Part shown: positions 14,899-22,152 of the stretch, in pieces | Layout: the number at the start of each line of letters is the position of its first letter | How positions within the stretch are numbered: the stretch's first letter is position 1 | Assembly (NCBI GenBank): GCA_016937215.1 | Contig: JAFGWI010000292.1 | Location: 1 to 64,000, forward strand | DNA: 64,000 bases | Reading direction: 5' to 3' | DNA from: Spirochaetales bacterium | GTDB taxonomy: Bacteria > Spirochaetota > Spirochaetia > SZUA-6 > JAFGRV01 | Made by a program: the position numbers and the translations under genes | Notes under the pieces: generated by a model | The model's input: the letters and a program-made list of their open reading frames with translations, nothing else | Databases searched by the model: none | Told to the model about the DNA's origin: nothing

Positions 14899-17016
14899 TT
14901 AGCAAGGAAAACTGCTGATAGACCCGACATATATCTGGGCAATCAAGAGCGCGTCAACAATATTAACAACATTATCGCAGTTAACATCAAGACATTCCTC
15001 CATAACTGTAGTTACAATGGGTAAGCCAACGTAAACCTGAGCCGCGAGCAATGCGTCAACAATATTTACCAGGCCGTCACCATTTCCATCACCTTTGAGA
15101 ACACAGGTCGTGCCGCCGGTTGAAACTGTTACGGTGCTTCCAGCAACTCTTCCTCCAAGCTCTTCGGCTGAAGGAGCTGTCAGGTTGTTAATGGAAATGC
15201 CGACCTCTGATGTGCCTTCAGTGCTGGTTGCCTTTAGGTAGATAACCAGAAGTTCCATGTCAGAACCAGGTCCAATACCGTTTACATCAAAACCAGTGGC
15301 AGAGATTTTGCCAGGAGTAGCAGCATTGGCAGCTGCCAGAAAGCCTTGTGAACCTGCTTTTGCGGCACTTGCTTCAGTGGTCGTGTCAGCCAGAAGATAG
15401 CTTGTGTTGAAGTTAATATCAATACCATAGGCGGCCAGGGCTGAATTGCCAAGAGTTGTCACTTCAATAGCCAGAGTCAAGCTTTGGCCTGGTTGTACTT
15501 GCTTGTTTGCCGGAACAACAGCCAGTTCCACATCGGGGTTTGGCGGAGGTGTCGGTGTTACAACCTGAGTCGGGGCTTCTGTTTCGCTTGGTCCTGTACC
15601 GTCAAAAAGAATGTAACCGGAACAGTGCATCATTTCGCTGTTAGAACCGCCGCATGAACTATCCTGCCAAACGGCTGTGTTGGTTGCCTGGTCTTCAGCT
15701 TCGAATTTTTCTCCATTATAGATGATATAGTCTAGCTGAACATCCAGACCATTATCAACATTATCATCGTTTGTAAAATAAACGGATATCTGGCCGTTAG
15801 CCCTTGTGGAGTACTCGGTCATCGTGGTGGTTAATGTAAAGGTATCGACAATTTCTCCAGCCGCATGTATTTCAATGATTTCACCACCCTTTGTGCCAGC
15901 TGCGTTTACGATCAGGTTGGCATTTGGGTCAACAGTTGGTGTTGGTGTTGGCACGTCTGTGGGCGCCATGGTTGTACCGCCCTCCATCAAGGCTTCCTGT
16001 ACAGCATAATAAGCAGGTTTTGGATTGTAGCTTCGGTCAAAAAGCAGCGGGTTGTCTGTTCCGGGGAAGGTTTGAGGTACCCATGAATATTGGTCTGTTA
16101 TGCCCCATACCTGGAAAACAGTACAGGCAGGCTGCTGCATGACTTTCTGCATAACACTTTTGTAAATTTTGGCCTGGTTTTCATAATCGGCCGTGCTGGC
16201 ATTTGGATTGATTCGAACATCCATTTCAGTGATCCAGATTTCAAGGCCTAGGTCAGCAAAGCGCTGCATGTTCTGGGCAAAGCTGTCGTAATTGATACCA
16301 GTGTCTGTAAGGTGCATTTGAAAACCGACACCGTCCACTTTGATACCTCGCTGTAACATGCCTTTAATCATATTATAAGCACCAGTGGATTTTGCGCTGA
16401 CAACATGCATGTTGTAGTCGTTGTAAATCAGCTTGATATTGGGATCAACTTGGGCAGCCCGTTTAAAGGCCAGATCAATAAAATCTTCGCCGATAGTGTT
16501 GTACCAGAAAGAGCGTCGGAAAGTACCATCTTCGTTGAAAGCTTCATTAACAACGTCCCAGGCAACACACTTGCCTTTAAAATGATTTAAAACAGCGTCG
16601 ATATGCTCATACATGCCTGTGATCATTGAATTACGATCGCGAAGGTTTTGTATCCAGCTTGGTGACTGAGAGTGCCAGACCAAAGTGTGTCCATGAACGA
16701 GAATATTGTTTTGCTGGGCAAAGCGGACAACATTATCAGCTGTTCCCCAGTTGAACTGACCTCGGTTGGGTTGAAGAGACTGCATTTTCATGGAGTTTTC
16801 ACTTGTTACGATGGCAAATTCGGTTCGGGCAATTTCCTGGTAGCGCGCGGCATTATTAACAGACTGAAAATTATCCTGCGTTGCATAACCAATTAATTTA
16901 CCGTTTTGTTCACCTAAAACTCTTAGTCGTTCGCCAGTTTGAGCAATCAGCAATCCTTGCATAAGAAGAAGTGCTAATAGAATAAACAGGGCTTTTTTAA
17001 TTCCGTTTCGATTCAT
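14899..17016 (-). CDS. Modular GH10 endo-xylanase with CBM60-like, cohesin-like and dockerin modules
   Basis: The 705-residue secreted enzyme has a signal peptide ending near LLIAQ26. Residues about 30-345 form a GH10 domain, with acid/base E158 in DVVNEAF, nucleophile E264 in WITEMD, and HTLVWHSQ. GH10 enzymes cut beta-1,4-xylan by retention. A PT linker leads to a xylan-binding CBM60-like module (about 368-478; [30 protein letters not shown]). After a second linker come a cohesin-like domain (about 498-630; LAAYGIDINF) and a type I dockerin with two Ca-binding repeats ([16 protein letters not shown] and [15 protein letters not shown]). The same tail is found on the esterase at 20227. Cohesin and dockerin on one chain hint at self-assembly. 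Confidence 0.92.
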   Translation of the reverse strand: MNRNGIKKALFILLALLLMQGLLIAQTGERLRVLGEQNGKLIGYATQDNFQSVNNAARYQEIARTEFAIVTSENSMKMQSLQPNRGQFNWGTADNVVRFAQQNNILVHGHTLVWHSQSPSWIQNLRDRNSMITGMYEHIDAVLNHFKGKCVAWDVVNEAFNEDGTFRRSFWYNTIGEDFIDLAFKRAAQVDPNIKLIYNDYNMHVVSAKSTGAYNMIKGMLQRGIKVDGVGFQMHLTDTGINYDSFAQNMQRFADLGLEIWITEMDVRINPNASTADYENQAKIYKSVMQKVMQQPACTVFQVWGITDQYSWVPQTFPGTDNPLLFDRSYNPKPAYYAVQEALMEGGTTMAPTDVPTPTPTVDPNANLIVNAAGTKGGEIIEIHAAGEIVDTFTLTTTMTEYSTRANGQISVYFTNDDNVDNGLDVQLDYIIYNGEKFEAEDQATNTAVWQDSSCGGSNSEMMHCSGYILFDGTGPSETEAPTQVVTPTPPPNPDVELAVVPANKQVQPGQSLTLAIEVTTLGNSALAAYGIDINFNTSYLLADTTTEASAAKAGSQGFLAAANAATPGKISATGFDVNGIGPGSDMELLVIYLKATSTEGTSEVGISINNLTAPSAEELGGRVAGSTVTVSTGGTTCVLKGDGNGDGLVNIVDALLAAQVYVGLPIVTTVMEECLDVNCDNVVNIVDALLIAQIYVGSISSFPC

Positions 17017-17385
17017 TCTTTTTCTCCTGATTTTAATATTTTTTATTTGTAATTAGTATATCATAAAATAGGACATTTTAACATTGAAATTTAAGGGAAA
17101 TTTATAGAAAAATCATTTAATCCTGGCATGTAATTGTTTTTGCATCAAAAAGGCTAATCAGAAAACATGATGCCCCTATCAGTGGAAAAAACCACTTGAG
17201 CTCTTGCAAATATCCCATGGTTAGTTACAACTGATTGAAGAATAGTGCTGATTGGCACCAGGAAATTCAGTCACTTGACTCAGACCATCAGCTTGTCGTA
17301 CAATCCAAACACAAGATGGAAACGCTTGTTTCACCTATCAGAGTCGCTGATAGTAAAAAATGAATCTTTATCTGGCATGAATAAA
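17017..17385. other. Intergenic stretch, no gene seen
   Basis: AT-rich DNA upstream of the xylanase that should contain its promoter. I see no ORF with support. ORF 17245..17469 runs into the repeat element and is not credible. Confidence 0.4.
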
Positions 17386-19915: not shown

Positions 19916-20226
19916 TCAGGATGGTGTCAGCATAATTACCATGGCCGGGTTTGACTATTTTTGTGGTAAATTGCATAAAAATGTAGGGAACCCACAAAAC
20001 CGCACGCGTCAATTTTGCTGTATCATAAGATGAGAGGGTAGGTTTTAAAAGCAGGGTTAAAGCAATATCCGCCTGTGTCTCAGGCTCATTAACCGGGAAA
20101 TCGAGTTTTCGGGATTGGAACCCTGTCTGGAAAAGCTTGATTCATAAAAATGACATGTTGTAATTATTTTTGAAAAAAGGATTCACTTTAAAAGTGGACC
20201 TTATAATAAATGAAAGGAATAAATAA
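19916..20226. other. Upstream region of the esterase gene
   Basis: No ORF is supported. TATAAT at 20203-20208 could be the -10 box of the esterase gene. The palindrome CACTTTAAAAGTG (20184-20196) sits just before it, where an operator would act. AAAGG precedes the ATG. Confidence 0.4.
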
Positions 20227-22152
20227 ATGAAAGTAAAAAACGTTAAAAAAGTAAGAGTCATATTCATCAGTTTTATGCTTGCTTTATTGTTAACAGTGCC
20301 AATGGGCCTGTTTTCACAGTCTTTACCAAGCACACCTTCTTCTGGTTATGATAGAGCGAGAAGCAATATTCAACACGGAGCGGTGAATTATATTAATTAT
20401 TCTTCATCTGCCACAAACAGTACTCGCCGGGCCAGAATCTATCTACCTCCGGGTTATTCGACAAGTCAGAAATACAGTGTTATGTATTTGCTCCATGGAA
20501 TCGGCGGTAATGAGGATGAATGGTATCAAAACGGCGCTCCTCATGTAATTCTTGATAACCTGATTGCTGATGGCAAGATCAAGCCTTTTATTCTGGTTTT
20601 GCCTAACGGAAATGCCACAGGCGGCGGTGCTTCTGATGGATGGGAGAATTTTACCAAGGATCTGCTCGACAGCCTGATTCCCTATGTGGAATCAAATTAT
20701 TCGGTGCACACCGACAGGGATCACAGGGCATTGGCTGGTCTTTCCATGGGCGGTGGTCAGACATTTAATATTGCTTTGACGAATCTGAACAAGTTCCCCT
20801 ATATTGGGTCTTTTTCCGCGGCTCCCAATACAAAATCCACTTCCCAGCTTTTCCCGGACGGCGGCACGGCAGCCAAAACCCAGATAAAGGTATTGTATAT
20901 TACCTATGGAACAACTGATTCCCTTATTTCTTTTGGAACGGGTGTTCATAATTACTGCGACCAAAAGGGTATTCCCAATATTTACTGGACCATTCAGGGC
21001 GCTGGCCATGACTGGAATGTATGGAAACAGAGTTTCTGGAATTTTGCCCAGATGGCCAATAATGCCGGTTTTACCGGTGAATCTGAACCAACACCGACAC
21101 CGGCTCCTACGGCTGTTCCGGATCCTAATGCTATAATTGTAAGGGCCTCAGGAACTCAAGGTGGTGAAAACCTGGATGTTATGGTTGATGGCAATAGAGT
21201 TGCAAGTTTTACCCTCACCGCAAGCATGCAGGATTATTCAACAATCGGGACCGGTTTGGTGGAAATTCACTACACCAACGATGATAATGTAGACAATGGT
21301 ATGGATGTTCAGCTTGATTGCATTATTTATCACGGTGAAACCCTTGAGGCTGAAGACCAGGAAATCAATACAGCTGTTTGGCAGGATAGTTCATGCGGTG
21401 GTTCTTTTTCTGAAATGATGCATTGCTCCGGTTATATTCGATTTAACACAGGCCCGGTACCCACTGCCGAAATCACACCCACACCCATTGTAACTCCTAC
21501 TCCGCCGCCTGAAGAAGCGGAAGCTGAATTGGCCATTTTGCCAGCCCGGAAATCTGTTGGTATGAACACCAGCTTTACCCTGACTGTTGCCCTGTCTTCT
21601 GGTACCAAGGCGATTGCTTCTTATGGCATCGACTTGCTTTATGACGCGAATTTGCTTTCAGTGGATACAGCCGCTATTTCAAGCGGCGCGAAAGCCGGCT
21701 CTGCTGGTTTTATGGCGGCTGCTAATCCGGCAACAGCTGGTAAAATTTCCATTACCGGTTTTGATGTGACAGGAGTCGGCCCGGGGACAAACCTCGATTT
21801 TCTGACAGTCTATTTAAAATCCGGTTCCATAGGTGGTTCTGCTGATGTTTCTATCCAAGTAAATATGATTACCGACGCCGAGACCATGGATGTCGCGACA
21901 AATACGCAAAGTGGTACAGTCATTATTACTAATACAACCCCTGTATGTGAGCTTCTGGGTGATGGAAACGGCGACGGACAAGTCAACATTGTTGATGCCC
22001 TGTTGGCAGCTCAGGCTTATGTTTCTTCATTCGTGCCAAGCGATGTTAATCTGGAATGCCTTGATGTGGATTGTAACGGTATTGTAAATATTGTTGATGC
22101 TCTCTTGATCGCTCAGAAATATGTTGGATTAATATCTGAGTTTAACTGTTAA
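20227..22152 (+). CDS. Modular CE1 esterase (feruloyl/acetylxylan type) with CBM60-like, cohesin-like and dockerin modules
   Basis: The 641-residue protein carries a signal peptide ending near GLFSQ. Residues about 45-275 form an alpha/beta hydrolase of the esterase D/CE1 group: [13 protein letters not shown], nucleophile S173 in GLSMGGG, probable acid D231 in GTTDS and base H261 in GAGHDW. CE1 members free ferulate or acetate from xylan. The rest repeats the xylanase architecture: PT linker, CBM60-like module (about 303-410; [15 protein letters not shown]), cohesin-like domain (about 433-565; [11 protein letters not shown]) and dockerin ([16 protein letters not shown] and [15 protein letters not shown]). 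It and the xylanase would act together on arabinoxylan. A clear terminator follows. Confidence 0.92.

Follow-up and report, generated by a model that had tools for sequence, protein, structure and literature searches.

A GH10 xylanase and a CE1 esterase encoded about 3 kb apart in the genome of a Spirochaetales bacterium (GenBank assembly GCA_016937215.1) end in the same three modules, a family 60 carbohydrate-binding module (CBM60), a cohesin and a dockerin, and both are probably secreted xylan-degrading catalytic adaptor subunits of a large, multi-scaffoldin spirochaete cellulosome. The genes were found in the 64,000-nucleotide stretch analysed here (the window; positions 1 to 64,000 of contig JAFGWI010000292.1, designated C174 in our genome set). 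As adaptors, the enzymes would be locked into a scaffoldin cohesin by the tail dockerin, and the cohesin of the enzyme itself would be a new socket recruiting one more dockerin-bearing enzyme. CBM60 would keep the resulting enzyme pair on xylan. The complex would in this way be lengthened or branched by active subunits, the scaffoldin being supplemented and not replaced.

Two xylan enzymes and their shared tail

The xylanase gene (14899..17016, minus strand) codes for 705 amino acids (aa), arranged as a signal peptide, GH10, a proline/threonine (PT) linker, CBM60, a second PT linker, a cohesin and a dockerin. Its catalytic module (15994..16914, minus strand) carries the motifs WDVVNE and ITEMD, was assigned to GH10 by Pfam (E = 1.4e-108; 2.5e-109 in a second search), and matched PDB 1vbr at 1e-101. 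The esterase gene (20227..22152, plus strand) codes for 641 aa in the same order, with CE1 as the catalytic module (20311..21078, plus strand). This module contains the nucleophile motif GLSMG, was recognised by the Pfam esterase profile at 5.1e-24, and has as its nearest solved structure the CE1 feruloyl esterase domain of Clostridium thermocellum XynZ (1jjf, E = 5e-112). By this homology the enzyme is feruloyl-esterase-like and the CE1 label is correct. Secretion is predicted for both proteins from their signal peptides.

XynZ of C. thermocellum has the module order CE1-CBM6-Doc-GH10, and 1jjf for CE1 and 1xyz, which we take to be the XynZ GH10 structure, were the best or near-best solved matches of the window modules. 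XynZ is a single polypeptide with a dockerin only, whereas here the modules are divided between two genes and accompanied by CBM60 and an added cohesin. Both catalytic modules are close to those of the XynZ fusion, as if the pair had been kept on two genes.

The CBM60 modules (15592..15915, minus strand, in the GH10 protein; 21133..21447, plus strand, in the CE1 protein) were sub-threshold with Pfam PF16841 in both proteins, and a profile built from five tails matched the crystal structures 2xhh/2xfd at 1e-32. The type I dockerins (14938..15096, minus strand, and 21955..22116, plus strand) scored 27.3 and 28.6 bits with PF00404, over the cut-off of 22.9 bits, with two calcium-loop repeats each (E = 4.1e-6 in the GH10 protein and 1.6e-6 in the CE1 protein).

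Pfam was less sensitive for the cohesins (15142..15516, minus strand, and 21538..21912, plus strand). With PF00963 (cut-off 24.1 bits) the GH10 tail reached 26.0 bits in the genome search and 21.7 bits in hmmscan, and the CE1 tail scored under the reporting level. A profile made from the genome's own cohesins gave 112 bits for the GH10 tail and 118 bits for the CE1 tail; in another search the local cohesin profile gave 133 and 136.6 bits, and was the only profile to detect the CE1 cohesin. An AlphaFold2 model of the cohesin-dockerin part of the GH10 protein was built with 49 aligned tails (predicted local distance difference test, pLDDT, 93.1; predicted TM-score, pTM, 0.72). Its best Foldseek matches were cohesins, with E-values down to 2.6e-11 and TMt up to 0.81; the dockerin-binding CaCohA2 was first, and cohesins of Clostridium perfringens glycoside hydrolases were included. 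The cohesin fold of the tail module is thereby confirmed at the level of the predicted structure. By profile and fold the module is a cohesin, and no whole X-dockerin dyad was present among the Foldseek matches listed.

Aligned over 341 aa, the two tails share 53% identity, a value that rules out their recent duplication. The sequence-only reading had assigned this common ending to both enzymes and had pointed to the cohesin and dockerin on one polypeptide as a departure from the classical plan; both observations were borne out.

Cysteines of the dockerins fall into pairs. The count of cysteine positions is even (0, 2 or 4) in 179 of the 201 dockerins compared from the genome and its relatives, a set that includes 14938-15096 and 21955-22116, and four conserved cysteines are found around the GH10 protein dockerin. 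The commonest pair joins the second calcium loop and the C-terminus (103/104); a second, the N-terminal cysteine with that of CLDVNC (16/17), is typical of CBM60 tails. Disulfide-locked dockerins are therefore predicted from the sequences.

The two genes lie on opposite strands and are divergently transcribed, with a gap of 3.2 kb. Each is directly followed at its 3' end by a terminator-like hairpin and T run (14857..14878, minus strand, for GH10; 22178..22204, plus strand, for CE1). The interval codes for a polysaccharide deacetylase, a DctP-type solute-binding protein and an acid-phosphatase-type HAD protein, and because of these intervening genes the locus is not a xylan operon.

Scaffoldins, dockerins and the recurrence of the tail

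The genome (5.09 Mb, 335 contigs, 87.7% complete) contains about 149 dockerin matches, of which about 130 are ordinary, non-tail enzyme dockerins, and about 49 cohesin matches by the local profile, with which all cohesin counts across genomes below were also obtained. One open reading frame (ORF) on contig C15 of this genome (G000:C15, L014:2467-7833; 1789 aa) has a signal peptide, a CBM3 (3e-14), a dockerin and ten cohesins, and is by its modules a textbook, non-catalytic primary scaffoldin. Three relatives, G015, G017 and G018, have orthologues of it in which CBM3 and a dockerin are accompanied by seven or eight cohesins; the CBM3 was checked in G015 and G018. The sequence-only reading had suggested head-to-tail self-assembly of a small xylanosome without a scaffoldin, and had named a separate scaffoldin beforehand as the finding that would overturn it. 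The genome search found one in the C15 ORF, so the scaffoldin-free form of that proposal is not supported, and head-to-tail assembly may still occur as an addition to the scaffoldin.

Further multi-cohesin ORFs with CBM64, carrying two to seven cohesins each, were found at the ends of contigs C66, C149 and C116, and are probably scaffoldins split at their repeats in the assembly. CBM64 stands in place of CBM3 in these ORFs (L135:1-3261 on C149, L134:1-2184 on C116 and L032:3003-4076 on C66).

Lipoprotein-type signal sequences were found at the start of short ORFs that hold one or two cohesins, in this genome as in the relatives, and these cohesin lipoproteins are likely surface anchors, judging from their N-termini. 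Two adjacent single-cohesin genes of this type were observed in this genome (L140:795-1448 and L140:1491-2033, G000:C297) and in G015 (L184:493-1215 and 1251-1832, G015:C56); the arrangement is identical in two genera, and the pair is a candidate for outer-membrane cellulosome anchors. Another cohesin is C-terminal in a protein of 1292 aa with a VWA domain and RCC1 repeats and without a dockerin (L141:179-4054, G000:C96).

Among the dockerin ORFs sampled (n=97), GH9 (11), GH5 (10), GH43 (4), GH11 (3) and GH10 (2) were identified; these family counts for dockerin-only enzymes are undercounts, as about 30 ORFs were incomplete in the region read and a further 29 were left unscanned. Three of the features that define a cellulosome were found in the genome, namely a multi-cohesin scaffoldin, dockerin-bearing plant-cell-wall enzymes and a cellulose-binding module on the scaffoldin.

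The tail itself is not confined to the window. The sequence-only reading had raised the question of further tails of this kind, and a dockerin placed directly after a cohesin was found in 12 ORFs of this genome and in at least 39 sampled from three relatives. Carriers in this genome include three of its eight GH10 enzymes, as well as GH11, GH43, CE1, GH9 and DUF3160 proteins. In the relatives they are GH11, GH5, GH12 and DUF3160 (three each), GH43, a GH27-type alpha-galactosidase, a subtilase and leucine-rich repeat (LRR) proteins. The full CBM60-cohesin-dockerin cassette occurs on GH11 both in this genome and in G015. Since the carriers in the relatives include many non-xylan proteins, the cohesin-dockerin tail is a family-wide device and not limited to xylan. 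Within this genome, xylan enzymes made up six of the seven carbohydrate-active enzymes with tails and nine of about 32 with a dockerin only (Fisher p = 0.008). This apparent xylan bias was rejected because the cohesins of five of the six belong to a single clade, so that these cases are not independent, and because the bias is absent in the relatives.

A protein with a dockerin, a long middle part (DUF3160 in L047) and a cohesin-dockerin end is conserved in three genomes (L047:1410-4352, L147:2730-5684 and L152:1386-4283), giving two dockerins and one cohesin per chain.

Proposed binding of the tail cohesin and dockerin

The recognition residues I10 V11 A17 Q18 were found in the two repeats of 90/128 and 89/128 enzyme dockerins, and in 7/13 and 9/13 tail dockerins. 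As these residues are shared, tail dockerins and enzyme dockerins should dock on the same scaffoldins. The C15 scaffoldin's own dockerin departs from the code (IVCQ / LRTQ), a split that fits tails entering enzyme-type cohesins and the scaffoldin entering a different, anchoring cohesin.

On the cohesin side, the motif GFDxxGxGP is kept in 44 of 52 tail cohesins, as against 47 of 88 scaffoldin and single cohesins. The tails keep a core tyrosine (strand at model residues 35-41) and GFDxxGxGP (end of strand 76-83); the dockerin-binding 8-3-6-5 face may be retained. In the tree, tail cohesins of the sampled relatives are intermixed with those of scaffoldins and therefore do not form a separate, decayed class.

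The adaptor role is supported from several sides: by scaffoldins in the same genome, with many dockerins and cohesins and a shared dockerin code; by a core motif better kept in the tails than in scaffoldin cohesins, with dockerin-binding cohesins as the top structural matches; by the recurrence of the tail; and, by analogy, by the cultured precedent of Ruminococcus bromii Amy4, which has both modules. Several observations weigh against it. Identity between these cohesins and the solved ones is no higher than about 10-19%, which is too low for contact residues to be mapped singly. The five CBM60 tails of this genome form one cohesin clade (support 0.97), and their specificity could therefore differ from that of scaffoldin cohesins. 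The distance between cohesin and dockerin is near-constant: counted from where the profile stops, it is 16 or 17 aa in 26 of 52 tails (overall range 16-28), and a short-linker dyad from a relative was modelled with a pTM of 0.81; such close and regular abutment also fits a structural dyad.

These last two observations are also the grounds for the best-surviving alternative, in which the tail cohesin no longer binds dockerins and stiffens or stabilises the adjoining dockerin, like the X module of X-dockerin dyads. In scaffoldins, by contrast, linkers of at least about 30 aa follow the dockerin, and the pTM of the relative's dyad suggests that the two modules may have a preferred orientation. 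For the dyad of the window, however, a pTM of 0.72 at pLDDT 93, with the cohesin making up about two thirds of the chain, does not indicate confident packing, and the Foldseek matches were to cohesins rather than whole dyads. The stronger conservation of core cohesin residues in the tails, and their interleaving with scaffoldin cohesins in the relatives, also speak for a functional cohesin, and we regard a purely structural role as unlikely.

Joining of tails head to tail, with the cohesin of one enzyme taking the dockerin of the next to give a small xylanosome without a scaffoldin, is favoured by the single code common to all dockerins, which could allow the cohesin of a tail to accept the dockerin of a tail. 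For R. bromii Amy4, a capacity for self-aggregation by means of its two modules, cohesin and dockerin, has been described (PMC5814915). The scaffoldins are nonetheless present and conserved in relatives, the roughly 130 non-tail dockerins would compete for the tail cohesins, and a tail found on many non-xylan proteins in relatives does not look like a xylanosome device; we consider this mode of assembly quite improbable. Slightly less credible again is a tail cohesin with a narrow partner, either one dockerin class such as the A16 type or the dockerins of other community members, that would make defined enzyme pairs: the CBM60-tail cohesins do form their own clade, alanine is found at position 16 of repeat 1 in 6/13 tail dockerins vs 4/128 others, and C. 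perfringens is known to pair one enzyme with another through cohesin and dockerin (PMC12997984), but the main recognition residues are the same in tail and enzyme dockerins and no second dockerin class of sufficient size was found.

Host and comparison with described cellulosomes

The host was taken as a member of the class Spirochaetia on the basis of FlaA (PF04620), a protein not known outside the spirochaetes, which was matched at 1.3e-68 in this genome. Of 18 genomes tested, 16 had FlaA, and the 14 named controls all lacked it. No 16S gene was found in the assembly. The GroEL encoded by the window contig shares 83-85% identity with that of same-family genomes and 67-79% with that of families of the class outside the host order, and the contig is for this reason assigned to the genome. 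Four of the five host-family genomes have cohesins (48, 32, 63 and 25 copies), and the 21 remaining genomes of the host order have none by the local profile. A phylum-wide sample of 393 genomes gave two with cohesins, this genome being one. Contamination of the metagenome-assembled genome (MAG) by Bacillota contigs was ruled out by the presence of the system in three of four same-family genomes, by the GroEL identity and by the predicted lipoprotein anchors.

CBM60 modules were also observed in G016, of the host family, and, in tandem, in G020 (family f5), both of which lack cohesins by the profile. Within the host family, the cohesin system has thus been either acquired or lost.

Enzymes with a cohesin and a dockerin on one chain are already known, and the tail described here is a variant of these. 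In the R. bromii amylosome, Amy4/Sca1 unites a GH13 module, a cohesin and a dockerin in one secreted chain within a system that also has scaffoldins, and its cohesin binds the dockerin of another enzyme by enzyme-linked immunosorbent assay (PMC5814915). That system, however, is starch-directed, Gram-positive and sortase-anchored with one such enzyme, whereas the present one has several catalytic families and CBM60, belongs to a spirochaete and is predicted to be anchored by lipoproteins. A GH31 of C. perfringens also has both modules on one chain (PMC12997984). Paenibacillus guangzhouensis has 28 monovalent adaptors with one dockerin-cohesin pair each, many including a GH domain, but has almost no other dockerins, a largest scaffoldin of two cohesins and S-layer homology (SLH) anchoring (PMC11557425), as against about 130 ordinary dockerins and a ten-cohesin scaffoldin here.

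The ScaC-type adaptor scaffoldins of Ruminococcus flavefaciens and ScaN1-7 of C. alkalicellulosi likewise carry cohesin(s) and a dockerin on one chain and are thought to widen the subunit repertoire, but are non-catalytic (PMC4081043; PMC6780208). In Acetivibrio cellulolyticus, ScaA (CipV) and ScaO/ScaP combine a GH9 or peptidase domain with cohesin and dockerin (PMC3413522; PMC5590126); ScaA is a primary scaffoldin of seven cohesins that includes an enzyme, whereas the proteins described here are enzymes with one cohesin.

Three aspects look new: that the host is a spirochaete, that anchoring is predicted to run through lipoproteins, and the scale of the system. Nearly every cellulosome described so far comes from a Gram-positive member of the Bacillota. 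When 305,693 RefSeq genomes, with MAGs left aside, were surveyed in 2024, cellulosomes were found in 33 species, almost only Bacillota, and the one marginal case outside that phylum had a two-cohesin scaffoldin (PMC11557425). No description of a spirochaete cellulosome was found in the literature searched for cohesin, dockerin and scaffoldin, and reports beyond that scope could exist. We suggest, more tentatively than the adaptor role of the two enzymes, that a family of spirochaetes may possess a complete cellulosome of Gram-negative type, held on the outer membrane by cohesin lipoproteins, in which many enzymes serve as sockets and form catalytic chains or branches on the scaffoldins.

With a spirochaete that has this inventory of dockerins, cohesins, a ten-cohesin scaffoldin and cohesins borne on lipoproteins, the known range of the cellulosome would grow by one phylum and one type of cell envelope. 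Enzyme-borne sockets, each allowing an enzyme to recruit the next, would be natural parts for designer complexes. If such sockets do operate on the scaffoldins, the number of enzymes in the complex would not be limited by the number of scaffoldin cohesins.

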